21,381 bases of DNA. Origin: a virus. The position numbers and the translations under genes are program-made. Position 1 is the stretch's first letter; the number at the start of each line of letters is the position of its first letter. The DNA is taken from IMG/VR virus record IMGVR_UViG_3300017708_003386, positions 1-21,381 of that record; one strand, 5' to 3'. The notes under the pieces are model-generated. The model did no database searches. It was not told where the DNA came from and was given only the letters and a program-made list of their open reading frames with translations. Below, piece after piece: positions 341 through 18,395 of the stretch.

Positions 341-2071
341 ATGGCAGAAATATTAGTATCACCTGGTGTATTAGCAAGAGAAAATGACCAGTCTTTTATC
401 ACAGAGCAGCCCGTACAAGCCGGAGCTGCTATAGTAGGTCCTACAGTTAGAGGTCCAATTGAGGTCCCCACAATAGTAACCTCATACTCAGATTACCAAA
501 ATAGGTTTGGTACTACTTTTGAAAGTGGAAGCAATGAATATTCATTCTTTACTTCAATTGCAGCCCAAAACTACTTTAGTAATGGAGGTAACACCTTATT
601 AGTAACTCGTGTAGTAAGCGGATCAGCTGCTACGGATTGGGATTATGCCGAAGCAAATATTCCGGGGTATACGGCAGCAACAGCATTTAAATTAGAATCT
701 CTTTATAAAGGAGCTGAATTTACAAACTCAGGTTCGGCTAATACAATGAGTAATGGAGCCCTATATACAGGCTCTAAAGATAATTTTAGATGGGAAGTTA
801 CAACAGCTAACTCTTCATCAGGTACTTTCTCATTGATTATTAGAAGAGGTGATGATAATACTAATACAAAATCCGTATTAGAAACATTTACTAACTTATC
901 ATTAGATCCAAAACAAAGCAATTATATTGCTCGTGTAATTGGTGATCAAACCTTAAATTACAACTCTACAGAAAATTACATCGAATATTCAGGATCTTAT
1001 CCTAATGCTTCAAGATATGTAAGAGTAAAAGAAGTAAATAATACTCCTGATTATTTAGATAATAGTGGTACTGCTAAAATAGCATTTACAGGATCTATCC
1101 CAACAGTAGGATCAGGTTCATACGGTGGTGCATTTAGTGGAAGTAAAGGTACAAATATACCTACAGATAGAGCAATGAATATGTATAATGCTATTAGCTC
1201 TGCAGATTCACAAGGGGTATTAGGTAGTGACTACAATAATATGTTAAGTCTTTTATCTAACCAAGATGAGTATCGCTACAACTTACTATTACTCCCAGGA
1301 CTAACTGATGCTGATCACTCTTCACAAATTACCACAGCAATTTCAAATGCCGAAAGTAGAGGAGATAATTTAGTAATAGTAGATCCTGTAAAGTATGGAA
1401 GCACATTAATAAATGCAACCTCAGAAGCAGGGGGTAGAGATACTTCATACGCTGCAATGTATTGGCCTTGGATTACAACTCTAGATCCTGATACAGGAGA
1501 TCAAGTTAAAGTACCTGCTTCAACATTGATGGGTGGAGTATTTGCTTTCAACGATAATGCTGGAGAACCTTGGTTCGCACCTGCTGGTATTAACAGAGGT
1601 GGAATGGGTACTGTTATTAGAGCTGAAAGAAAATTATCTCAAGCAAACAGAGATTCATTATATGAAGCTAATGTAAACCCAATTGCAACATTCCCTGGAA
1701 CCGGAGTTGTAGTATATGGGCAAAAAACATTGCAGAAACAAGCTAGTGCATTAGATAGAGTAAATGTAAGAAGATTATTAATCGAACTTAAATCTTATAT
1801 TAGTCAAGTCTCTCAAACACTAGTATTTGAACAAAATACAGCTGCTACAAGAAATAACTTCTTATCACAAGTAAATCCATACTTAGAAAGTGTACAACAA
1901 CGTCAAGGTTTATTTGCCTTTAGAGTAGTAATGGATGATACTAATAACACAGCAGATGTAATTGACAGAAACCAGTTAGTAGGTCAGATATTTATCCAAC
2001 CAACTAGAACAGCTGAATTCATTTACTTAGACTTTAATGTATTACCAACGGGTGCAACATTCCCATCGTAA
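341..2071 (+). CDS. Contractile tail sheath protein (T4 gp18-like)
   Basis: A 576-residue tail sheath subunit, which assembles as a helical sleeve around the tail tube and contracts to drive the tube through the host envelope. The N terminus has the sheath signature SPGV (residues 7-10), followed by the VGPTVRGPIEVPTIVTS block (from about residue 32) and a 'YQNRFG' block. The last 150 residues, with 'NPIATFPGTGVVVYGQKTL' and ending near 'AEFIYLDFNVLP', match the conserved C-terminal sheath domain that forms the subunit-subunit mesh. It is shorter than T4 gp18 (659 residues), and the variable surface domain in the middle (about 95-290, rich in Ser, Gly, Asn and Thr) accounts for such differences. 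The tail tube gene follows after 45 bases. The start is the first ATG, right before the signature; it has no Shine-Dalgarno sequence. Confidence 0.96.
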   Translation: MAEILVSPGVLARENDQSFITEQPVQAGAAIVGPTVRGPIEVPTIVTSYSDYQNRFGTTFESGSNEYSFFTSIAAQNYFSNGGNTLLVTRVVSGSAATDWDYAEANIPGYTAATAFKLESLYKGAEFTNSGSANTMSNGALYTGSKDNFRWEVTTANSSSGTFSLIIRRGDDNTNTKSVLETFTNLSLDPKQSNYIARVIGDQTLNYNSTENYIEYSGSYPNASRYVRVKEVNNTPDYLDNSGTAKIAFTGSIPTVGSGSYGGAFSGSKGTNIPTDRAMNMYNAISSADSQGVLGSDYNNMLSLLSNQDEYRYNLLLLPGLTDADHSSQITTAISNAESRGDNLVIVDPVKYGSTLINATSEAGGRDTSYAAMYWPWITTLDPDTGDQVKVPASTLMGGVFAFNDNAGEPWFAPAGINRGGMGTVIRAERKLSQANRDSLYEANVNPIATFPGTGVVVYGQKTLQKQASALDRVNVRRLLIELKSYISQVSQTLVFEQNTAATRNNFLSQVNPYLESVQQRQGLFAFRVVMDDTNNTADVIDRNQLVGQIFIQPTRTAEFIYLDFNVLPTGATFPS

Positions 2072-2085
2072 AGGTTAAAAAAGTA

Positions 2086-2094
2086 AATATTTAT
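2086..2094 (+). promoter_or_regulatory. AATATTTAT intergenic motif (copy 3), before the tail tube gene
   Basis: Exact AATATTTAT continuing as ATAATAG, ending 22 bases before the tail tube ATG at 2117. The gap of 45 bases holds nothing else. Spacing matches copy 2, upstream of the sheath gene. Confidence 0.45.
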
Positions 2095-2116
2095 AATAGA
2101 ATAAAATAAATAGAAA

Positions 2117-2602
2117 ATGGCAGTATTAGATCCAAACGAAATATTTTTCACAGCCTTTGAGCCAAAACAAACTAATAGGTTTGTTATGTACATGGATGGT
2201 TTCCCAACTTTCATGGTTAAAGGAGTAGGTGGTGTGAATGTGTCCCAAAACGCAATTGAACTTAATCATATTAATGTTCAACGCTTTGTAAAAGGTAAAA
2301 CTACTTGGGGTACAATTGATTTTACCCTATTTGATCCTATTACACCATCAGGCGCACAAGCTGTAATGGAATGGGTTCGTCTACACCACGAATCAGTAAC
2401 TGGTAGAGATGGTTATTCTGATTTCTACAAGAAAGATTTAACATTTAATGTAATTGGACCTGTAGGTGATGTTGTTTCGGAATGGATTGTTAAAGGTGCT
2501 TTAATTACTTCTGCTAACTTTGGTGATTTTAATTGGGATAACGACGGTGCTGTTGAAATTTCAATGACAGTACAACCTGATTACTGTATCTTGAACTTCT
2601 AA
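2117..2602 (+). CDS. Tail tube protein (T4 gp19-like)
   Basis: A 161-residue major tail tube protein, nearly the length of T4 gp19 (163 residues). Its hexameric rings stack into the rigid inner tube through which DNA passes. The N-terminal 'NRFVMYMDGFPTFMVKG', the central 'WGTIDFTLFDP' with 'AQAVMEWVRLHHE', and the C-terminal 'VEISMTVQPDYCILNF' are typical of the gp19 family and of the wider tube fold also found in type VI secretion Hcp-like proteins. It follows the sheath gene, the usual T4-type order. A strong intrinsic terminator lies 24 bases behind the stop codon, as expected for an abundant structural product that is made in excess over the baseplate genes downstream. Confidence 0.95.
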   Translation: MAVLDPNEIFFTAFEPKQTNRFVMYMDGFPTFMVKGVGGVNVSQNAIELNHINVQRFVKGKTTWGTIDFTLFDPITPSGAQAVMEWVRLHHESVTGRDGYSDFYKKDLTFNVIGPVGDVVSEWIVKGALITSANFGDFNWDNDGAVEISMTVQPDYCILNF

Positions 2603-2622
2603 AAGGAAAATAAATATTTTTT

Positions 2623-2660
2623 AAAGAGAGCTTGGCTTCGGTTAAGCTCTTTTTTATTTT
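2623..2660 (+). terminator. Intrinsic terminator with a UUCG tetraloop
   Basis: A 10-base-pair stem (2627-2636 with 2641-2650, including two G-T pairs) closes the loop TTCG in a C(TTCG)G context, an exceptionally stable RNA tetraloop, and is followed by TTTTTTATTTT. Flanking A and T bases can extend the stem. UUCG-capped terminators are well known in T4. It would end or thin out transcripts from the sheath and tube genes before the baseplate genes. Confidence 0.92.
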
Positions 2661-2669
2661 AATATTTAT
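2661..2669 (+). promoter_or_regulatory. AATATTTAT intergenic motif (copy 4), directly behind the terminator
   Basis: Exact AATATTTAT starting one base after the terminator T-tract and ending 31 bases before the ATG at 2701. Its position between a terminator and the next gene is the strongest positional argument that the motif marks a new transcription start. Confidence 0.5.
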
Positions 2670-2678
2670 ACTCGTAAC

Positions 2679-2691
2679 AAAGTTATTATAA
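2679..2691 (+). promoter_or_regulatory. AAAGTTATTATAA element (copy 1)
   Basis: A 13-mer repeated exactly at 12317-12329, in both places just before a start codon (9 bases here, none there). It overlaps a TATAAATA at 2687-2694, the T4 late promoter consensus. The latter is only 6 bases from the ATG, so it would give an almost leaderless transcript. Function is unproven. Confidence 0.3.
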
Positions 2692-2700
2692 ATAAAAGAT

Positions 2701-3438
2701 ATGGAATTCAAATTACCAACTGAAACTATCGAGTTACCTTCTAAAGGTTTACTCTATTCTGAAGATAATCCTCTATCCTCTGGAACTATTGAAATGAAGT
2801 ATATGACTGCTAAGGAAGAAGATATTCTTACTAACCAATCATATATCCAAAATGGAACAGTATTCGATAAACTATTTAAATCTTTAATAGTCTCAGATAT
2901 CAATTACAATGATCTTTTACTAGGAGATAAAAACGCAATTTTAGTTGCTGCTCGTATTTTAGGATATGGAGCCGAATATAAATTTATCCATAATGGAGAT
3001 GAACACACAGTAGATTTATCTCAAATTGATAATAAACCTATTGATGAGTCTTTATTTACTAAAGGTCATAATCGTTTTGATTTTATTTTACCATCAACCC
3101 AAATTAAAATTGAATTTAAAATTTTAACTCACCAAGATGAAATCAATATTCGTCAAGAATTAAAAGGAATACAACGTATTAACAAAGATTCTAACCCAGA
3201 ATTAACAACAAGATTAAAACATACTATAATTTCAGTTAATGGGAGCGAAGATAAAAAAGATATTCGAGAATTTATAGATAACTATTTATTAGCTCGAGAT
3301 GCTAAAGCTTTTAGAGATTATATTAAACAAATTCAACCCGACGTAGATTTGTCTTTTTTCCCCCCCGAAGGTAAAAATAGAATCAATATCCCAATTGGGC
3401 TTAACTTTTTTTGGCCTGAAGCTGGAAACGATATCTGA
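2701..3438 (+). CDS. Baseplate/tail-assembly protein (T4 gp26-like)
   Basis: A 245-residue protein that looks like the T4 base plate protein family typified by gp26. The N-terminal 'ELPSKGLLYSEDNPLS' followed by 'EMKYMTAKEEDILTN' is the family's hallmark, and the C-terminal 'INIPIGLNFFWP' also looks conserved. Most of the remainder is helical and charged; residues about 55-75 hold the 'KSLIVSDINYNDLLLGDKN' region. It lies between the tail tube and tape-measure genes, where most long-tailed phages encode the tape-measure chaperones. The final 44 bases overlap an ORF in another frame that has no ATG, with a run of seven T at 3406-3412, so a second, longer product made by frameshifting is likely. 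Family assignment is from recall of the motif, not from a search. Confidence 0.7.
   Translation: MEFKLPTETIELPSKGLLYSEDNPLSSGTIEMKYMTAKEEDILTNQSYIQNGTVFDKLFKSLIVSDINYNDLLLGDKNAILVAARILGYGAEYKFIHNGDEHTVDLSQIDNKPIDESLFTKGHNRFDFILPSTQIKIEFKILTHQDEINIRQELKGIQRINKDSNPELTTRLKHTIISVNGSEDKKDIREFIDNYLLARDAKAFRDYIKQIQPDVDLSFFPPEGKNRINIPIGLNFFWPEAGNDI
3354..3366 (+). other. Homopolymer TTTTTTCCCCCCC, alternative slippage site
   Basis: Six T followed by seven C within the region where the gp26-like frame and the downstream ORF frame are both open (3347-3438). A -2 slip on the C run (CCC re-pairing two bases back) would enter the downstream frame. I consider it a weaker candidate than the T run at 3406-3412, because slipping here replaces the conserved-looking C-terminal segment. 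Confidence 0.25.
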
Positions 3439-8245: not shown

Positions 8246-11200
8246 ATGAGTAATATAGTAGGAGCCCCTCACTTAGAATATGTCCAAGAACAAATAAAAA
8301 CTAGACAAGAAATTTTAGGAAAAAAAGATCGTTCTAGCCAGGACCTTACTTGGATGAACAATAATAATTCTTGGATTAGATTAGTATCATCTGTTAATAT
8401 TGGATCTCAAGACGTTTATCAATTTGTTTCTGGTTCTGATGAGCTTCAATTATTATCTAATAATGGAGAAGAATTTAGAGAAAATTTATTAGGACTTGAT
8501 AACTATGGGGGAAATAAATTATCTAGTGAATTAATATTGCAAGGGGGAGCTCAAAAGGGTAATAGCAAAAGATTTGGGGTAGCCGAAACCAATTCTACCC
8601 TTCCATCAGAAAATTTTAATTATGGGTATGGAGGTTTAGATTTTGGTTTAAAACCTATTCCTGGAATTCAATCTTTTAATTCTAAAACTTATAATAACGG
8701 ATCTTTAAGAGAGGCTCAAATTACTATTTTAGCTCATAATAAAAATCAATTTGAATATATAGAATCTACTTATTTAAGATTAGGATATACAATGCTCTTA
8801 GAATGGGGAAACTCAGCATATCCTAAAAATTCTTCAGAATATTCAAACACCCAAGATTTATCTCAATTATCTTTAAAAAATAAATTTCTAGATGATCAGG
8901 GTAGTGGGCCTAATTACTTTTATACAGAAATTGAAAAACTTAGAAAAATATCTAAAGGTAACTATGATGGATTTTTGGGAACAGTAAAAAACTTTTCATG
9001 GGAATTTAATAAAGAACAACAATATGTAATTAATTTAACTTTAATAACTATTGGAAGTGTAATTGAAAGTTTAAAAATAAATCTCCCATCTTCAACAATT
9101 AAATACCCACCTAAGGAATTAGAAGAAGGACAAGATAACGCCCAACAAGGATTTCAAAACGCTCTTATTAACTTAATTCAAATAGTTGCAACCCCTGACC
9201 CTTTTAATACTGAAGATGAGGAAATAAAAAAAATTCCATATATTAAAGGTATACCTTTTTTTGGGAGCAACTCCTATATTGATAATAGATATAAACCTAT
9301 TAAATATGCTGATGATGGGTTAACAGCAGTAGCTTGTTTTGCTAATTATGGTAATAATAAATTTATTAGATATATTAAATTTGAAACTTTATTAGAATTA
9401 ATTAATGATAATCTTCTTATTTATAATAATGAAGGTGATCCAACTTTAATTAGGATTGATACTAGTGATGAACTTTACTGCTATAGTAATGGATTTAGCA
9501 TCTCAGCAGACCCTTCAAAAATGTTGATTGGTTTTAAAAAAGATACTAATGAATTAAAAGCTAATATTTTTAATTTAACTCTTCCATTTTTCCATGATAC
9601 TGTAAACGAAGTTCAAGTTGGTAAAATAAAAAATTTATTTTTTACTTCTGAATATCTTATCCAAGAAATAAAAGATAATACAGATAAAGATGAAAACCTA
9701 AATTTATTTGATTTTCTAAATGGCCTACTATCTACCGCAAATAATCTTTTAGGAGGAGTTAATAAATTAAAAATTAAAATTACTGATAAAGAATTTAAAT
9801 TAGTAACAAATACAGACAACGATCCTGATCAAGTTGCAGAATCAAAAATTGAACAAGTAATCGAAATTTATGATGAAGTTCAGCCATATAAAAGAAATAA
9901 ACTTTTTCCTAATTCTGAAAAACCCTCAATATTTAAAATATTAGGAGTAGAACCTGATAAAAAGGGAGGATTTGTTACAGATTTTAGTTTAAAAACTGAA
10001 CTAACTAAAGATTTACAAACTATGATCGCTATTGGGGCACAAGCAAATGGCTCTGCAGTAGGAGAAGATGCTACTATTTTTAGTAAATGGAATGTAGGTT
10101 TAATAGATAGAATAATTCCTAATAAAAAAGACTCTGATCAACTAGCACAGTCTTTAGAAAATGCACAAAAACCCCTAGAAGAATTAAGTGATATAACTAC
10201 AAAATATTTTAGTTACGTAAATTTATTCCAAAACTCAGTAGATAATCTAGAGAGTTCAGGAATTACTCCTGAAGACCAACAAAGACGTACTAATGCTGAA
10301 AATGAACTTAAAAATTTAGAAGGTACAGATAAAAAAACTCAATCTCGAAAAAGAGAATTAGAAGATTTAATTGATGGTATTCAAAAAGAATTTTTTACAG
10401 GATATGGGTTTCCTGATGTGAATTTAGGTACAGTAGAAGGAGAAACTAATTTTACTAATTTTGTTAGTATCCAAAAAGAATTTTTTAGAAGAGCTTTATC
10501 TTTTGATGCTATAAGTAAACAAACAGTAACTCCTACTATAGGATTTCTTCCAATTAATTTTTCTTTAACATTTGAGGGTCTATCAGGAATTAGAATATTC
10601 GATAAATTATCAATTGAATCTAAATTTTTACCTAATAATTATGGAGATACTTTAGAATTTATTATTACTGAGTTAGATCATTTTATAGAGAATAATAAAT
10701 GGTATACTAGAATAGGAACTCTTTCTATCCCTAACACTATAAATAAACCTGAAGCTGTAATTCAAATAAAACAATTATCCGAAGTTGCAGCTCAATTCTT
10801 AGTACTTGATGATTTTGTAGGAGCTTATGCCTATGAAAATAGTGCTGTAGCTACTTTAATACTTGAAACCTACGATAGTAGAGAAGATGCAGACGCTGGC
10901 CCCACAAACTTAAGAAAAGCTGGAAATTTATTACTTCCTGATATTTCCCCTGATATTCCTGCAACTCCAACAGCTACAACTGGAACCCAAAACCAAAGTG
11001 TTTTAGTTTCAATAGGTAAATTAGGAGGGTCTCTTGACCTACCGAATCGTTCTCCTATCACAAATGTTAAATTATCAATTCAAGATAAAGATGATCGTCA
11101 ATTTTATAAAAAACAATATGGGGGTCATTACTTTTTAGAACAAAATGCTGCATATGCTTTAGATAGTTTAGCAAGAAAAGCTCAACGAGATGGTATTAGT

Positions 11201-11743
11201 TTTACAATTACTAGTGCTTATAGAGATTTAAACCACCAAGCAAGGATTCTAAAAAAAGATAAAGAAAACGCAGCTACAAATAGTCCTCATAGTTATGGTG
11301 GAGCTATAGATATACAAGAAATTTCATCAGTCTGTAGAAATGATAATGGTGATCTTACCTCTAATCCTGGAATTAATTCTTCTGTTAGGACAAATAATAA
11401 AATATTTAAATGGTTAGATGAAAATGGCCCTAAATACGGATGGTACAACCCAGCACGTTTAAGAGATGGTATAGGCCAAGATGAAGCCTGGCATTGGGAA
11501 TTCTGGGGGGTTCCAGGTCAACGTGTATCTTATTCTAACACTTACGGAAATGATGGAGATAGAAAAGGAATCTTTGGGAACCACTACGAAAATGTCCCAG
11601 AATTAGAAGATCCAAAAGAAGATAAAAATGGAAAATTAATCTCAAAAGGAAATAATACTTTAGCATTAAATGTTGGAAGTCCCTATTTAAAGAAAAAAGG
11701 TAACATAGTACTTACTGAAAGTACAGAAGATCTTGCAGATTAA
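8246..11743 (+). CDS. Large baseplate hub protein with C-terminal M15 zinc peptidase
   Basis: At 1165 residues this is the longest gene here. The N-terminal part ('SLREAQITILAHNKNQFEYIE' region near 155, 'YLRLGYTMLLEWGNSAYP' after it) resembles hub proteins of T4-like phages, but I cannot place gp27 with certainty. A charged coiled-coil stretch lies at about 645-720. Residues about 960-1100 form an M15 (VanY/D,D-carboxypeptidase type) peptidase: 'SAYR' (Arg993), 'SPHSYGGAID' supplying zinc ligands His1015 and Asp1022, and 'EAWHWEF' supplying the catalytic Glu1080 and zinc ligand His1083. All key residues are present. It probably cuts peptide cross-links of the cell wall at the puncture site, the task T4 gives to the gp5 lysozyme. 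The last 50 residues are a polar tail. It starts 7 bases after the gp53-like gene and shares TAATG with the gene behind. Confidence 0.88.
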   Translation: MSNIVGAPHLEYVQEQIKTRQEILGKKDRSSQDLTWMNNNNSWIRLVSSVNIGSQDVYQFVSGSDELQLLSNNGEEFRENLLGLDNYGGNKLSSELILQGGAQKGNSKRFGVAETNSTLPSENFNYGYGGLDFGLKPIPGIQSFNSKTYNNGSLREAQITILAHNKNQFEYIESTYLRLGYTMLLEWGNSAYPKNSSEYSNTQDLSQLSLKNKFLDDQGSGPNYFYTEIEKLRKISKGNYDGFLGTVKNFSWEFNKEQQYVINLTLITIGSVIESLKINLPSSTIKYPPKELEEGQDNAQQGFQNALINLIQIVATPDPFNTEDEEIKKIPYIKGIPFFGSNSYIDNRYKPIKYADDGLTAVACFANYGNNKFIRYIKFETLLELINDNLLIYNNEGDPTLIRIDTSDELYCYSNGFSISADPSKMLIGFKKDTNELKANIFNLTLPFFHDTVNEVQVGKIKNLFFTSEYLIQEIKDNTDKDENLNLFDFLNGLLSTANNLLGGVNKLKIKITDKEFKLVTNTDNDPDQVAESKIEQVIEIYDEVQPYKRNKLFPNSEKPSIFKILGVEPDKKGGFVTDFSLKTELTKDLQTMIAIGAQANGSAVGEDATIFSKWNVGLIDRIIPNKKDSDQLAQSLENAQKPLEELSDITTKYFSYVNLFQNSVDNLESSGITPEDQQRRTNAENELKNLEGTDKKTQSRKRELEDLIDGIQKEFFTGYGFPDVNLGTVEGETNFTNFVSIQKEFFRRALSFDAISKQTVTPTIGFLPINFSLTFEGLSGIRIFDKLSIESKFLPNNYGDTLEFIITELDHFIENNKWYTRIGTLSIPNTINKPEAVIQIKQLSEVAAQFLVLDDFVGAYAYENSAVATLILETYDSREDADAGPTNLRKAGNLLLPDISPDIPATPTATTGTQNQSVLVSIGKLGGSLDLPNRSPITNVKLSIQDKDDRQFYKKQYGGHYFLEQNAAYALDSLARKAQRDGISFTITSAYRDLNHQARILKKDKENAATNSPHSYGGAIDIQEISSVCRNDNGDLTSNPGINSSVRTNNKIFKWLDENGPKYGWYNPARLRDGIGQDEAWHWEFWGVPGQRVSYSNTYGNDGDRKGIFGNHYENVPELEDPKEDKNGKLISKGNNTLALNVGSPYLKKKGNIVLTESTEDLAD

Positions 11744-12329: not shown

Positions 12330-13589
12330 GTGTTTTGGTTAATTGAGAATAAAGAACAATTTTCATGGTTACAAAATAGTGGTTTTAAAGAAGTATTTGT
12401 AGAGATTATCCCAAATAATCCTTACCAACACCCTTCCCAAAACTCAATTTGTGCCTTTTATATAAGACCCATTGTAGGTCACAAGGGATATATTCTACCT
12501 ATCTCTCACCCCGAATGTGAAATTTTATTTGAAGATGAGGTTTATCTATGGTTAAAAGGGTTAGATAAGTTATATGTAAGGGATAAAAAAGAATTCCTAC
12601 ATTATACAATATTTAAACAGCTTATAGACATAACACTCCACTCTCCTCCGTATATACTTCCACAAACAACAGCACACACTACCCTTTATAGAAGATTCCC
12701 CGATCTTTTAACAGTAAATCAACTTGTACCGATTACTAAACACTATGAGGTTTGCGAGCAAATATATGATGATTTGGAGCACCGCATTAACCCCCGCGTA
12801 AACCCGTTTTATAATGACAAAGCTACATTAGTGTTCAATGCAATTGAGCGTAATGGCATAAAAATAAATAAAAATGAATTTGAAAAACACTTCCACCCAG
12901 TTGATAACGAATTTGTTCATACCGTTTATAATTTCAAGACGCTTACTACACGTCCTTCAAACAAGTTTAGAGGAGTCAATTATGCGGCACTTTCCCACAA
13001 GAACGGTTCTAGAAAAAGTTTTATACCACATAACGATAAATTTGTTGAGTTTGATATTAGTGCCTACCATCCTACTTTATGTGGTATGCTTGTTGATTTT
13101 AAATTTGATAATGGTGATATTCATGAGTCTTTTGCAAGCATGTATGGTGTTGATTACGCTAAGGCAAAAGAATTAACGTTTAAACAACTATACGGAGGAG
13201 TATTTGATAATTACAAGGATTTACCATTCTTTAAATCAACATCTGAGTATATACGTAGAAACTGGGAAGAATTTAATACCACGGGTTCGATAACGTGTCC
13301 TATCTCTAATTATGTTTTTAAAAAAGATGAGTTAGAGGATATGAATCCTCAAAAATTATTCAATTATGTTTTACAAAATATGGAAACAAGCTTGAATATT
13401 GAAATATTATTTCGTATATTTAGGCTATTGAAGGGGAAAAATACTAAGTTAGTATTATATACTTATGATTCGTTTCTCTTTGATGTAGATAAGGAAGAAT
13501 TGCCCGTATTGGAGCAAGTAAAACAAGTTTTTAATGAATTAAAGTTACAAATTAAGGAAAAAAATGGAAGCAGCTACGACTTTGAATAA
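12330..13589 (+). CDS. Divergent, compact family A (Pol I-type) DNA polymerase-like protein
   Basis: A 419-residue protein starting at GTG. 'IERNGIKI' (172-179) equals the IERNGVKID of Pol I, 'TRPSN' (207-211) matches the TGRLSS strand and 'RKSFIP' the RKAFIP segment. Motif A is 'FDISAYHP' (Asp242), motif B 'KELTFKQLYGG' (Lys280, Phe284, Tyr288, matching Lys758, Phe762, Tyr766 of E. coli), motif C 'YTYDSF' (Asp380). Both catalytic Asp are kept, but the Glu710 position is His247, the Arg754 position is not Arg, and His881/Glu883 are Tyr/Ser. Only about 30 residues separate IERNG from TRPS, against roughly 120 in Pol I, so most of the thumb is missing. The first 100 residues align in outline with the Pol I 3'-5' exonuclease fold but lack Asp-x-Glu. 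T4 uses the family B gp43 instead. Whether it replicates the genome is unknown. It overlaps the next gene by 26 bases. Confidence 0.8.
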   Translation: MFWLIENKEQFSWLQNSGFKEVFVEIIPNNPYQHPSQNSICAFYIRPIVGHKGYILPISHPECEILFEDEVYLWLKGLDKLYVRDKKEFLHYTIFKQLIDITLHSPPYILPQTTAHTTLYRRFPDLLTVNQLVPITKHYEVCEQIYDDLEHRINPRVNPFYNDKATLVFNAIERNGIKINKNEFEKHFHPVDNEFVHTVYNFKTLTTRPSNKFRGVNYAALSHKNGSRKSFIPHNDKFVEFDISAYHPTLCGMLVDFKFDNGDIHESFASMYGVDYAKAKELTFKQLYGGVFDNYKDLPFFKSTSEYIRRNWEEFNTTGSITCPISNYVFKKDELEDMNPQKLFNYVLQNMETSLNIEILFRIFRLLKGKNTKLVLYTYDSFLFDVDKEELPVLEQVKQVFNELKLQIKEKNGSSYDFE

Positions 13590-14028
13590 TTACGATTATA
13601 TTTATGGGGAAGATATACACTCACCCCAAAGTAATATAGATTTGAATAATAAACTATTTTGTACGTTTACTACGTTAGAAGATCTTGATTCTTTGGTGAG
13701 TGACCTACAATCCCAATACAGCATAATGTATAATAAAATGTTCGTGTTGCACGTAAAGAGCAATAACGAATACGTCGTTACATATAATGTAGACCAGGCT
13801 AATGTAGCCTCGATCCCAGAGAATACAATCTTAGTACATAGAAAAAAAGATAGTAATACCTTGTATACTATAAATGCTTTAAATGAATTAATTAAGCGTT
13901 TAAACAATGGTGTAGTAGATACACGTTTTAGAGTAAATTGGCAACACTATCGTAATACAATTCTTTTAACTCAACAAAATGAGCTTAAAGAACTAAAAAC
14001 TAAAATTCATAAGATTATTGAGCTTTAA
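13564..14028 (+). CDS. Unknown protein overlapping the polymerase-like gene, 154 residues
   Basis: No named family recognised. The sequence reads as a compact alpha/beta domain: 'LFCTFTTLEDLDSLVSDL', 'MFVLHVKSNNEYVVTYNVD', 'PENTILVHRKKDSNTLYTI', then a helix 'ALNELIKRLN' and the segment 'RVNWQHYRNTILL', closing with a charged helix. The Arg/Lys-rich 'HRKKDSNTLYTINALNELIK' part could bind nucleic acid, but this is only a guess. It starts inside the end of the polymerase-like gene, 26 bases before its stop, and has the only clear Shine-Dalgarno-like string of the window (AAGGA, 7 bases before the ATG). The overlap suggests a function linked to the polymerase-like protein. A 59-base gap with a promoter candidate follows. 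Confidence 0.75.
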   Translation: MEAATTLNNYDYIYGEDIHSPQSNIDLNNKLFCTFTTLEDLDSLVSDLQSQYSIMYNKMFVLHVKSNNEYVVTYNVDQANVASIPENTILVHRKKDSNTLYTINALNELIKRLNNGVVDTRFRVNWQHYRNTILLTQQNELKELKTKIHKIIEL

Positions 14029-14087: not shown

Positions 14088-14903
14088 ATGGATTTAGACG
14101 TAATCAAGAAGCGACTAGAGGCGCTTGAAAAATCACCCTCTAACAATAACAATGGTAAGTCATTGTTCTGGAAACCATCAGTAGGTAAACAAGTAATTCG
14201 TGTTGTGCCTTCTAAGTTTAACAAATCAACCCCATTTAGTGAATTGTATTTCCATTATGGTATTGGAAAGCCTGTAATGATCTCTCCAATTAACTTTGAT
14301 GAAAAAGATCCACTAGTAGAATTTGCTAAACAACTTCGTAAAACTGACAACCCTGAAAACTGGAAATTGGCTAAAAAACTCGAACCAAAAGTTCGTTACT
14401 TTGCCCCTGTCATTGTTCGTGGTATGGAAGATGAAGGTGTTAAGATTTGGCAGTTTGGTAAAGAATTATATTCTTCATTCCTCCAATTAGCTATGGATGA
14501 TGAGGTAGGTGACTTTACTGATATAGTAGGAGGACGTGATATTAAGTTAACTACTGTGGGACCTGAAATTACAGGTACTAAGTACAATAAAACTACAGCT
14601 TCACCTTCAATGAAAGTTACCCCACTAGATGGAGATTCTTCAAAAGTAGAAAATTGGCTTACCAATCAGGTAGAACCAAAGGGAGTATTTAAGCAAGTTC
14701 CTTACGATGAGATGAAATCTAACCTTGAGTCTTGGTTGACTCCTGAAGATGCACCTCAAGAAGGCGATATCATTGATGATGAAAAACCAACAGAGGAAAC
14801 TAATTACTCACTTAACACATCAACTGAAAACGTTAAACAAACCAAATTAGATAAATTTGATAGTTTGTTTGATGATGATAAAGAAGATGATCTACCATTT
14901 TAA
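14088..14903 (+). CDS. Single-stranded DNA-binding protein (T4 gp32-like)
   Basis: A 271-residue protein that coats single-stranded DNA in replication and recombination and recruits helicase and recombinase. 'KSLFWKPSVGKQVIRVVP' opens the OB-fold core, and 'VRYFAPVIVRGMEDEGVKIWQFGK' (shown in part: 'YFAPVIVRGMEDEG', 'IWQFGKELYSSFLQL') is the typical gp32-family block. The C terminus is a strongly acidic tail (about 225-271) ending 'DSLFDDDKEDDLPF', the protein-recruiting tip of such proteins. No cysteine is present, so the zinc site of T4 gp32 is absent. T4 gp32 controls its own translation through its leader; the A/T-rich 60-base leader here would allow this but proves nothing. It is followed after 2 bases by the recombinase gene. 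Confidence 0.9.
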   Translation: MDLDVIKKRLEALEKSPSNNNNGKSLFWKPSVGKQVIRVVPSKFNKSTPFSELYFHYGIGKPVMISPINFDEKDPLVEFAKQLRKTDNPENWKLAKKLEPKVRYFAPVIVRGMEDEGVKIWQFGKELYSSFLQLAMDDEVGDFTDIVGGRDIKLTTVGPEITGTKYNKTTASPSMKVTPLDGDSSKVENWLTNQVEPKGVFKQVPYDEMKSNLESWLTPEDAPQEGDIIDDEKPTEETNYSLNTSTENVKQTKLDKFDSLFDDDKEDDLPF

Positions 14904-14905
14904 TT

Positions 14906-15985
14906 ATGCCTAGAAAAGCAAGTAAATCTTTAACAGCAGCTGTATCTGCTGAGATTAAATCTAAATTTGACCTTAACAGTTTTAAGGATAAAAAAGGATT
15001 AGGTGGTAATGTTAAATTTAAACCACAACAATGGATTCCACTTTCTAAAGCATTTCAAGAAGTAACCTCTGTACCTGGTATTCCAATGGGGCACGTATGT
15101 CTCCTTAGAGGTCATTCTGATACGGGAAAAACCACAGCCTTAATTGAGGCTGCGGTTTCTGCCCAAAAATCTAAAGTGTTACCTGTATTCATTATTACAG
15201 AGATGAAATGGAATTGGGAACATGCCATGCAAATGGGATTAGAAGTAAATGAAATATGGGACCCTGAAACAGGTGAACTAGTAGACTACCAGGGTGATTT
15301 TATTTATGCTGATAGAGAATCACTTCATACAATTGAAGATGTAGCAGCCTTTATTTTAGATTTATTAGACGAGCAGAAAAAAGGTAATTTACCATTTGAT
15401 TTAATGTTCTTATGGGATTCAATTGGATCAGTTCCATGTCAAATGTCTGTTGAGAAGAAAAAAAATAACAACGAATGGAATGCTGGTGCTATGTCTACAC
15501 AATTTGGTAATGTAGTTAATCAAAAAGTTGTAATGTCTCGTAAGGAAAGTAGCCCATATACTAATACATTAGTTGCTATTAATAAAGTATGGACTGCTAA
15601 ACCTGAAACACCCATGTCAATGCCTAAATTGATGAATAAAGGTGGTTTTACAATGTGGTATGATGCTACTTTTGTTGCTACATTTGGTAATATTTCAAAT
15701 GCTGGTACCTCTAAGATTAAAGCAATCAAAGATGGTAAACAAGTAGAATTTGCTAAGCGTACTAATCTTCAAATTGATAAAAACCACATTAATGGTATTA
15801 CTACTAGAGGTCGTATTATTATGACTCCACATGGTTTTATTGAAGATAATGATAAATCACTTAAATCTTATAAAAGTGACCATGCTAAGGAATGGGCTGC
15901 AATTTTAGGGGGGAGTAATTTTGATATAGTTGAGGAAACTGATACTATTACCCCTGAGGTAACTTACGAACAAGAACCAAATTAA
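14906..15985 (+). CDS. UvsX/RecA-like recombinase
   Basis: A 359-residue strand-exchange ATPase. Walker A is 'GHSDTGKT' (residues 69-76), Walker B 'LMFLWDS' (Asp171), and the intervening 'PVFIITEMKWNWEHA' carries the glutamate typical of RecA-type ATPases. The region around 185-225 ('NAGAMSTQFGNVVNQKVV') corresponds to the DNA-binding loops, and 'TLVAINKVW' to the next core strand. Length is close to T4 UvsX (391 residues). In T4-like phages UvsX drives recombination-dependent replication together with gp32 and UvsY, and its gene sits between those for gp32, gp41 and the 5' nuclease here, consistent with that pathway; no UvsY is visible in the window. Start and stop are separated from neighbours by 2 and 3 bases. 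Confidence 0.93.
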   Translation: MPRKASKSLTAAVSAEIKSKFDLNSFKDKKGLGGNVKFKPQQWIPLSKAFQEVTSVPGIPMGHVCLLRGHSDTGKTTALIEAAVSAQKSKVLPVFIITEMKWNWEHAMQMGLEVNEIWDPETGELVDYQGDFIYADRESLHTIEDVAAFILDLLDEQKKGNLPFDLMFLWDSIGSVPCQMSVEKKKNNNEWNAGAMSTQFGNVVNQKVVMSRKESSPYTNTLVAINKVWTAKPETPMSMPKLMNKGGFTMWYDATFVATFGNISNAGTSKIKAIKDGKQVEFAKRTNLQIDKNHINGITTRGRIIMTPHGFIEDNDKSLKSYKSDHAKEWAAILGGSNFDIVEETDTITPEVTYEQEPN

Positions 15986-15988
15986 ATT

Positions 15989-17038
15989 ATGGCAAATAAA
16001 GATTTATTAGAGCTCCTTAATAACATGGATAAGGAGCCGGAGATACCCTCCTCACCACATGAAAGAGTTTTATTTATTGATGGTCTAAATCTATTTTTTA
16101 GAAACTTTGCGATGTTGAATATTGTTAATCAGCAAGGTGTCCACGTAGGTGGGTTAGGTGGTTTTATTCGTTCATTAGGGACTCTAATAAATGCTATTCA
16201 ACCAACTTCAATGTATGTTATATTTGATGGAGAAAATTCATCAATGAATAGAAAAAATGTTCTCTCAGAATATAAAGCAGGTCGCCATCAATCTCGTATT
16301 ACTAATTGGGAAATTTTTGAGAATGTAGGAGATGAACACGATGCTAAACTAGATCAAATAGTTAGATTAATTGATTATTTAAAGTGTCTCCCTGTTAAAA
16401 CATTAGCGCTCGATAAGGTAGAGGCCGACGATATTATCGCGCATTTAGCAACAAAAATCACCACAGATAATGATAACTCAAGAGCATTTATTGTATCAAG
16501 TGATAAAGATTTTATCCAATTAACTAGCAATAAAATTTGTGTATACCGTCCTATTGAAAAGGACTATTATACACCTGAGACAGTAGTAAATAAATTTAAA
16601 GTGTTACCTGAGAATTTTATTCTTTATAAAGTCTTAATGGGTGATGCCTCTGATAAAGTTCCTGGGATTAAAGGTTTAGGTGAGAAAAAATTACATAAAT
16701 TATTCCCAGAACTAAATCAAAGAAAGCTTACACTAGATGATATAATTGAGATTGCTGGAGAAAAACATAAAGAGCATGTTATATATTCTCGTGTAGTATT
16801 TGAAGAAGGTAATCTTCGCAAAAATTATAAGATTATGGATTTACATAATCCTATGGTAGATGAATTAGAAAAAAACTATTTAAATGAGCAAATAGATATT
16901 AATCCACCCGTGCTAAACCAAAAAGCTTTTCTTAGATTCTACCAAGAAGATGGGTTACGCCATCTAATTAAAAACCCCGAGTTTTGGGTTAATAACCAGT
17001 TCCAATCATTAAATAGTTTTGTAAATGACTCTGAGTAG
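15989..17038 (+). CDS. 5'-3' nuclease of the FEN/T4 RNase H family
   Basis: A 349-residue structure-specific 5' nuclease that would remove RNA primers and flaps during lagging-strand synthesis. Metal-binding motifs are all in place: 'FIDGLNLFFRNF', 'VIFDGENSSMNRKNVLSEYK' (Asp and the helical-arch Arg/Lys), 'KVEADDIIAHLA', 'IVSSDKDFIQL', and 'MGDASDKVPGIKGLGEKK', the last being the helix-hairpin-helix DNA-binding part. Length fits T4 RNase H (305 residues) with a longer C terminus. In Pol I this activity is fused to the polymerase; here it is a separate gene, about 2 kb from the Pol I-like gene. It overlaps the helicase gene by 14 bases, so the two are likely translated together. Confidence 0.92.
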   Translation: MANKDLLELLNNMDKEPEIPSSPHERVLFIDGLNLFFRNFAMLNIVNQQGVHVGGLGGFIRSLGTLINAIQPTSMYVIFDGENSSMNRKNVLSEYKAGRHQSRITNWEIFENVGDEHDAKLDQIVRLIDYLKCLPVKTLALDKVEADDIIAHLATKITTDNDNSRAFIVSSDKDFIQLTSNKICVYRPIEKDYYTPETVVNKFKVLPENFILYKVLMGDASDKVPGIKGLGEKKLHKLFPELNQRKLTLDDIIEIAGEKHKEHVIYSRVVFEEGNLRKNYKIMDLHNPMVDELEKNYLNEQIDINPPVLNQKAFLRFYQEDGLRHLIKNPEFWVNNQFQSLNSFVNDSE

Positions 17039-18395
17039 TTTAAATAAGTATGGTCCAGCGTTTCAAATTAAGGTTATACATTCTTTATTAGAACGTAAAG
17101 AATTTTTAATTAATATTCATGATATCTTAGATTCATCTTACTTTGATAATCAAGCCCATAAGTGGATTATTGATAACATTTTAAAGTATTATAATGATTA
17201 TCATACAACCCCTACCCCTGAGGTATTAAAGTCCGAATATGAAAAAGTTACTAATGATGTTTTAAAAGTATCTATTAGAGAACAACTTAGAGATGTTTAT
17301 AAAATCGTTGCTACAGATTCTGAGTATATTCAAACTGAATTCTCAGCATTTTGTAAAAATCAACAATTAAAAAAAGCACTATTAGGTAGTGTTGATTTAC
17401 TCCAAGCTGAGGATTATGATTCAATTCGAGGATTAATTGATAATGCCCTAAAAGCAGGAATGGATAAAAATATTGGACATGAATATATGAAAGATATTGA
17501 AACACGTTATAGAGAAGAACAACGTGTTACCATTCCAACACCTTGGGCTCAATTTAATGAAATATTGCAAGGTGGTTTAGGTAATGGTGATTTTGGTTTA
17601 ATATTTGGTGGCCCCGGTGCTGGTAAATCTTGGTCATTAGTAGCATTAGCTGGTAATGCTGTAAAAATGGGGTTTAATGTTGTTTATTATACATTAGAGT
17701 TAGGTGAGGATTATGTAGGTAGAAGATTTGATGCCCATTTTACAGGTATTCCTGCTAACGAGATTATAATGCATAAAGATAAAGTTGAAGACGTAATGGC
17801 TAAGTTACCTGGCAATCTTATTATTAAAGAATTCCCACCCAATAAAGCATCTATATCAACTATTGAGTCACATATCCAGAAATGTGAAGATTTAGGTACC
17901 AAACTTGATTTAGTAGTTATTGATTATGTTGATCTTCTTCGATCAAAGAAAGTAAGCAAGGAACGGAAGGAAGAAATTGATGATATTTATATAAGCACGA
18001 AAGGATTAGCCCGCGAGCTTAATATCCCAATTTGGTCTGCTTCTCAAGTTAATAGACAAGGAGCACAAGATGAAATTATTGAAGGACATAAAGCAGCGGG
18101 CTCTTATGACAAAATGATGATAACAGATTTTGCGGCTTCAATTAGTCGTCGTGCAAAAGATAAACAAACTGGAGTTGGTAAACTCCATATAATGAAGAAT
18201 AGATACGGAATGGATGGACTTACTTATAATGCTGCTATCAATATCGCCATTGGTGAATATAAGATTATAAGTGATTTAGAGTTTGAAGAACTAGCCGGTT
18301 CACCCGAATCTAACCCCAATGAAGGTTCTTTAATTACAGATAATTTTAATTTATCTGAAAAAAACCAGTTACGTAACCTTTTATTTAACTCATAA
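17025..18395 (+). CDS. Replicative DNA helicase (T4 gp41/DnaB-like)
   Basis: A 456-residue hexameric 5'-3' helicase that unwinds the fork and, in T4, works with primase gp61. The N-terminal 170 residues are a helical domain; the RecA-like motor domain follows with Walker A 'GGPGAGKS' (195-202), Walker B 'LVVIDYVDLL' (Asp300), and later motifs 'IPIWSASQVNRQ' (Gln sensor) and 'GVGKLHIMKNRYG' with the arginine-finger region. Length is close to T4 gp41 (475 residues). The ATG lies 14 bases inside the nuclease gene. No primase, clamp or clamp-loader gene is present in this window. The reading of all motifs is straightforward. Confidence 0.93.
   Translation: MTLSSLNKYGPAFQIKVIHSLLERKEFLINIHDILDSSYFDNQAHKWIIDNILKYYNDYHTTPTPEVLKSEYEKVTNDVLKVSIREQLRDVYKIVATDSEYIQTEFSAFCKNQQLKKALLGSVDLLQAEDYDSIRGLIDNALKAGMDKNIGHEYMKDIETRYREEQRVTIPTPWAQFNEILQGGLGNGDFGLIFGGPGAGKSWSLVALAGNAVKMGFNVVYYTLELGEDYVGRRFDAHFTGIPANEIIMHKDKVEDVMAKLPGNLIIKEFPPNKASISTIESHIQKCEDLGTKLDLVVIDYVDLLRSKKVSKERKEEIDDIYISTKGLARELNIPIWSASQVNRQGAQDEIIEGHKAAGSYDKMMITDFAASISRRAKDKQTGVGKLHIMKNRYGMDGLTYNAAINIAIGEYKIISDLEFEELAGSPESNPNEGSLITDNFNLSEKNQLRNLLFNS

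Follow-up and report, generated by a model that had tools for sequence, protein, structure and literature searches.

A Short, Thumbless Family A Polymerase-Like Protein Encoded beside the Replication Genes of T4-Related Phages

A short family A protein, polS (a working name for the product of the open reading frame at positions 12330-13589), is encoded in the 21,381-nucleotide stretch of phage DNA analysed here (the window). We conclude, with little room for doubt, that polS, whether a working polymerase or only polymerase-like, is an additional family A protein with an accessory role, and not the replicase. It is carried by T4-related phages from marine and fresh waters.

The polS Gene and Its Relatives

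12330..13589, plus strand: polS, short family A DNA polymerase, 419 amino acids (translation of the open reading frame, GTG start)

The Pol I landmarks named in the original prediction were each located where it had placed them in the 419-residue translation: IERNGIKI at residues 172-179, TRPSN at 207-211, RKSFIP, D242, K280/F284/Y288, and D380. A Pfam search with the window polS returned no family at E ≤ 1, PF00476 included, while 21 of 52 polS relatives matched PF00476 (best E-value, 2e-12) and the phrog_17 profile ("DNA polymerase") matched the window protein at 1.7e-4. A polS sequence profile matched nothing in the PDB at E ≤ 1, and polS is linked to solved structures through fold comparison only. 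No match to the family B profile PF00136 was found in the window. Assignment of polS to family B was also considered and rejected: motifs A and C superficially resemble SLYPS and DTDS, but the spacing of motif B, the retained equivalents of Asn845 and Gln849, and the fold are those of family A.

The only annotated phages found to carry polS are Flavobacterium phage immuto (four records), Microcystis phage Mel-JY01, and the 484-kb phage LR756508. When IMG/VR was scanned, 334 stretches matched the window protein, 312 matched the immuto protein, and 109 matched the Mel-JY01 protein; these three sets may overlap, and 80 of each were taken on. A scan with the jumbo-phage (LR756508) copy revealed no further IMG/VR relatives. 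Some polS relatives are present in contigs binned with Flavobacteriaceae, which hints at Flavobacteriaceae as the host. Comparison with nine relatives gave dN/dS values of 0.08-0.16, indicating purifying selection on polS.

Predicted Structure of polS

An AlphaFold2 model of polS, built from a 52-sequence alignment, was obtained with a pLDDT of 91.8 and a pTM of 0.89. In a comparison with the PDB, all of the matches listed were family A polymerases, among them the apicoplast polymerase (2.5e-18) and the Klenow fragment (5.8e-18). The model superimposed on the Bst Pol I large fragment with a Z-score of 26.1 over 393 residues at 4.2 Å, and the superposition on Bst residues 300-876 covers the entire polS model. 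The structure prediction and comparison with Klenow that the original prediction had called for thus gave a confident Klenow-like fold with a Pol I palm. As modelled, the N-terminal part of polS is an exonuclease-like domain, and the remainder is palm and fingers.

12330..12785, plus strand: exonuclease-like N-terminal domain, residues 1-152 (superposition on Bst Pol I 300-876)
12849..12950, plus strand: thumb remnant, residues 174-207, 34 residues (spacer measurement and model)

The thumb had been described as nearly missing, and this was borne out. The spacer between E173 and R208 is 34 residues long in the window polS, compared to 126 in E. coli Pol I; the window clade has 34-35 residues here, the immuto clade 40, and the Mel-JY01 clade 22, and the equivalent spacer in the other polymerase of immuto, a 777-residue PolA, is 216 residues long. 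Between a helix that ends at residue 175 and a strand at residue 210, where Pol I has its long thumb helices, the model contains a single seven-residue helix. By both predicted structure and spacer length, then, the thumb subdomain is missing from polS. The fingers are also trimmed throughout the family, the spacer between the Y766 and N845 equivalents being 54-60 residues, versus 78 in Pol I.

Ligands of the Klenow-type 3'-5' exonuclease are not conserved in the polS family at the aligned positions, the mapping being approximate. At the positions that correspond, as mapped by eye, to D355, E357, D424, and D501, the 226 polS-family sequences contain, respectively, E or I, I, variable residues, and E or R. 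The exonuclease-like domain of polS is therefore probably inactive.

Residues of the Active Site

Active-site residues were surveyed in the same 226 sequences, which belong to four lineages and range down to about 25% identity. Equivalences were established by aligning the motifs with those of E. coli PolA; a global hhalign alignment misaligned the N-terminal half, and only its palm part was used.

13053..13070, plus strand: motif A, D242-I-S-A-Y-H247 (Pol I D705-Y-S-Q-I-E710); D and H in 226/226
13155..13193, plus strand: motif B, Y276...K280...F284...Y288 (Pol I R754, K758, F762, Y766); all four in 226/226
13464..13472, plus strand: motif C, Y379-D380-S381 (Pol I H881-D882-E883); Y in 225/226, D in 226/226, S or A in 226/226

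The equivalents of R668, N675, D705, K758, F762, Y766, Q849, and D882 are invariant, that of N845 is kept in all sequences but one (225/226), and the K-x3-F-x3-YG form of motif B that is characteristic of family A is present. Neither D242 nor D380 is lost in any of the relatives. Four other positions, which the original prediction had listed as changed, do differ from Pol I. The equivalent of Glu710 is His (H247 in the window) and that of Arg754 is Tyr (Y276) in 226 of 226 sequences; the equivalent of His881 is Tyr (Y379) in 225 and Phe in one; and the equivalent of Glu883 is Ala in 156 and Ser in 70 (S381 in the window). The question of whether relatives share these substitutions is thereby answered: they are fixed in the family, with Ser or Ala at position 381 and a single Phe at position 379. 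Since Glu710, Arg754, and the HDE form of motif C, the set typical of family A, are absent, we regard polS as a divergent family A variant rather than a typical member. The possibility that polS is a decaying sequence was ruled out by the 226/226 conservation and the low dN/dS; for the same reasons, the altered residues are a fixed trait of the family.

In Pol I, Glu710 is the steric gate, while Arg754 and His881 contact the incoming nucleotide or the primer end. Judged by the whole set of surveyed residues, catalysis by polS looks preserved, while the nucleotide pocket appears to be changed in a single coherent way, and nucleotide choice may possibly be altered. With neither the Arg754 nor the His881 equivalent, and with no thumb, polS could also have very weak activity.

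Another reading is that polS is a catalytically inert, polymerase-like scaffold for the 5' nuclease, gp32, or the replicase. The four family-wide changes at the nucleotide site, the absent thumb, and the shortened fingers would be accounted for in this way. However, the metal-binding Asp pair and the equivalents of Lys758, Phe762, Tyr766, Arg668, and Gln849 remain invariant in all 226 sequences, even at an identity of about 25%, whereas the exonuclease-site ligands have drifted in the same protein. We accordingly consider an inert scaffold improbable.

A published family A enzyme places the polS pocket in context. In the polymerase of Thermus phage Tt72, two Asp residues are essential, Ser occurs naturally at the E883 position, and the E710 equivalent is accessory only (PMC9324360). 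Because of these Tt72 features, the polS pocket is less extreme than it appears.

A Separate Replicase in Related Phages

Since the window is a 21-kb fragment, a second polymerase could be sought only in its relatives, and the search was confined to them. A family B polymerase, for which the original prediction had proposed a search, was found: five window-clade records (58-96 kb) encode a gp43-type PolB, as do Mel-JY01 (855 amino acids), eight Mel-clade records, and LR756508. Flavobacterium phage immuto encodes a full 777-amino acid PolA at 37.9-40.2 kb, in which the exonuclease motifs (DTET) are intact and the E710, R754, and H881 positions hold the canonical residues, and a full PolA is present in ten immuto kin. 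PolB and a second PolA occurred together in no record, and neither was found in some shorter fragments, which says nothing either way.

In three window-clade records read in detail, PolB is encoded by two genes, with the break falling between motif B and motif C. The parts, of approximately 558-596 and 309 amino acids, lie at 502-3104 of record L099, 315-3198 of L100, and 1259-3294 of L101; in L100, an 82-amino acid open reading frame is located between them, and in L101, a similar one follows the larger part. In LR756508, PolB occupies 260.6-266.9 kb (loci L265-L267) as two large open reading frames of 1022 and 625 amino acids with separated motif blocks, and perhaps contains an insertion or an intein.

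Two annotated copies of polS can be read against this background. The immuto gp001 protein (YP_010114413, "DNA polymerase family A") is homologous to polS over its length at 38% identity, resides in the same operon as in the window, and is the same kind of protein, the canonical enzyme of that phage being the separate PolA. The Mel-JY01 protein WWT39333 ("hypothetical protein") is homologous at 27% identity and shares the residue signature and gene order of the window; it carries no functional annotation, and its companion replicase is PolB.

In the long related records, polS is thus not the sole or main polymerase, a canonical second polymerase being present there (the window itself is a fragment). 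The label of the immuto copy and its location in the replication module would agree with polS being the main replicase of the phage, but the canonical PolB, or 777-residue PolA with intact exonuclease and polymerase motifs, of the long records reduces the probability of this to almost nothing. Of the roles originally suggested, a new type of replicase is contradicted by these separate enzymes, and a priming role is unlikely, since immuto, Mel-JY01, LR756508, four other immuto-clade records (at least 150 kb long), and one Mel-clade record have a gene for a DnaG-type primase. The idea of a specialised enzyme within a T4-type replication module is supported both by the separate PolB or full PolA of long relatives and by the retained catalytic Asp pair. 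A search for a gp45-type clamp (PF02916) gave no matches, but the controls were silent too, and the result has no bearing on the clamp.

The polS Operon

13564..14028, plus strand: s154, 154-amino acid protein, possible polS partner (its start overlaps the polS end)
14088..14903, plus strand: gp32-like single-strand DNA-binding protein (PF08804, E 4.6e-14)
14906..15985, plus strand: UvsX/RecA-like recombinase (phrog_97, E 2.7e-12)
15989..17038, plus strand: Pol I-type 5'-3' exonuclease (FEN), a separate gene (PF02739, E 2e-31)
17025..18395, plus strand: DnaB-like replicative helicase (phrog_19, E 6.7e-76)

The order baseplate-region genes, polS, s154, gp32, UvsX, FEN, DnaB recurs in three clades, with NrdB-NrdA next after DnaB in those window-clade and immuto-clade contigs that extend further; LR756508 has the same order with insertions. 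In the baseplate region of the window, a 1165-amino acid protein (8246-11743) has a C-terminal VanY-type D-Ala-D-Ala carboxypeptidase domain (PF02557, E 5.5e-13), likely a cell-wall-cutting tail part. Elsewhere in the immuto genome (NC_055915; L081, 18607-37015), the record annotation lists queuosine/7-deazaguanine genes and a DpdA-like DNA transglycosylase, and immuto DNA may be modified.

FEN is 29% identical to the N-terminal domain of E. coli Pol I. Its best matches among solved structures were Pol I 5'-nuclease domains (M. smegmatis Pol I, 3e-21; Taq, 7e-20), and T4 RNase H matched at only 5e-5. By sequence, its closest resemblance is to the 5'-nuclease domain of bacterial Pol I and not to T4 RNase H.

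The nearest neighbour of polS is s154, found at most 3 kb downstream in all of the 193 loci that were long enough to show it (193/193); in the window clade, the start of s154 mostly lies within polS, with an overlap of about 25 nucleotides. Both genes occur in the same 6 of 50,697 phage records. The s154 family is conserved, 129-157 amino acids long, and contains the motif VHRKKETNTLYTINALNELI (window 13564-14028; alignment A3). Its members gave scattered weak Pfam matches only and no PDB sequence match, and the AlphaFold2 model of s154 gave noise-level fold matches, among which T-antigen origin-binding domains ranked first (Z 6.8).

The constant adjacency of s154, with its overlapping start in most window-clade loci, and the 226/226 replacement of the steric-gate Glu710 by His and of Arg754 by Tyr would both fit a polymerase with changed substrate choice (ribonucleotides or modified nucleotides, for example), possibly a two-subunit one in which s154 replaces the thumb. 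Single-subunit RNA polymerases have Tyr at the Phe762 position, but polS keeps Phe; DnaG primase is encoded in relatives; and the fold match of s154 is at noise level. An ordinary phage PolA, moreover, has an accessory Glu710 equivalent and natural Ser at Glu883 (PMC9324360). We give changed substrate choice a low probability. The specific proposal that polS and s154 form a two-subunit family A polymerase, with s154 as the thumb and a His/Tyr/Tyr/(Ser or Ala) pocket serving a non-ordinary substrate or reaction, is likewise distinctly unlikely.

In every clade, polS lies a short way upstream of gp32 and UvsX. Taken with its non-conserved proofreading site and fixed pocket changes, this location raises another alternative: a recombination-linked or lesion-bypass polymerase that extends UvsX D-loops or bypasses damage on gp32-coated DNA. 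Yet FEN and the helicase share the operon, a protein with no thumb is ill-suited to longer D-loop extension, and polS shows no bypass-specific insert. This role is, in our view, rather unlikely.

Proposed Role of polS

We propose that polS would act as a template-directed accessory polymerase alongside the phage's own replicase. The retained two-metal core and the residues that read the primer-template minor groove should make it capable of template-directed synthesis, which would be non-proofreading, as the proofreading site is not conserved. Lacking a duplex-gripping thumb, polS should be distributive, with low processivity, and suited to very short synthesis. Since the operon contains a Pol I-type FEN, a Pol I-like part in primer replacement and gap repair is proposed: polS, with FEN, gp32, and perhaps s154, would replace primers and fill gaps, and the two activities of Pol I would be split over two genes, polS (polymerase) and FEN (5' nuclease). 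The predicted fold, the conserved motifs, the absent thumb, the constant operon, and the separate replicase of relatives are observations, whereas the activity, low processivity, gap-filling role, and s154 partnership of polS are inferences, and we see even chances that polS serves to fill gaps together with FEN. The presence of FEN in the operon is suggestive of teamwork but is not proof of it. In T4, gaps of this kind are filled by gp43, and a further polymerase is therefore not strictly required.

Comparison with Known Systems

The family A label of the immuto copy is already in GenBank. In the open-access literature, we found no published account of T4-type phages with a shortened or additional family A polymerase, no study of immuto gp001, and no paper describing the missing thumb, the family-wide substitutions, or the coexistence with a separate replicase. 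The thumb, the steric gate, and the Arg754 and His881 contacts are textbook parts of family A polymerases. With these parts uniformly replaced and the Asp pair invariant, the polS family offers a natural test of which Pol I elements are truly necessary. The family is present in hundreds of environmental phage contigs, beside either kind of replicase, and suggests that T4-type phages infecting Flavobacteria and other aquatic bacteria share the work of Pol I between a dedicated short polymerase and a Pol I-type 5' nuclease, and do not leave it to gp43 alone.

The Klenow fragment and the Bacillus Pol I large fragment share with polS the domain order, the palm, the frame of motifs A, B, and C, and the two catalytic Asp residues. 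They differ in the thumb spacer (126 residues versus 34 in polS), in the fingers, which are trimmed in polS, and in Glu710, Arg754, His881, and Glu883, which are replaced; unlike these enzymes, polS coexists with another replicase. The Tt72 PolA, an active family A phage enzyme, also has Ser at Glu883, but is full-length, has thumb and proofreading, and keeps the Glu710 equivalent (PMC9324360). Certain T4-type jumbo phages encode a minimal split Pol III alpha beside gp43, for which a one-strand or repair role was proposed (PMC7824862). Like polS, it is a reduced second polymerase that accompanies a PolB replicase in T4-type phages; unlike polS, it belongs to family C, has a pol-beta fold, and is encoded by two genes (PMC7824862).
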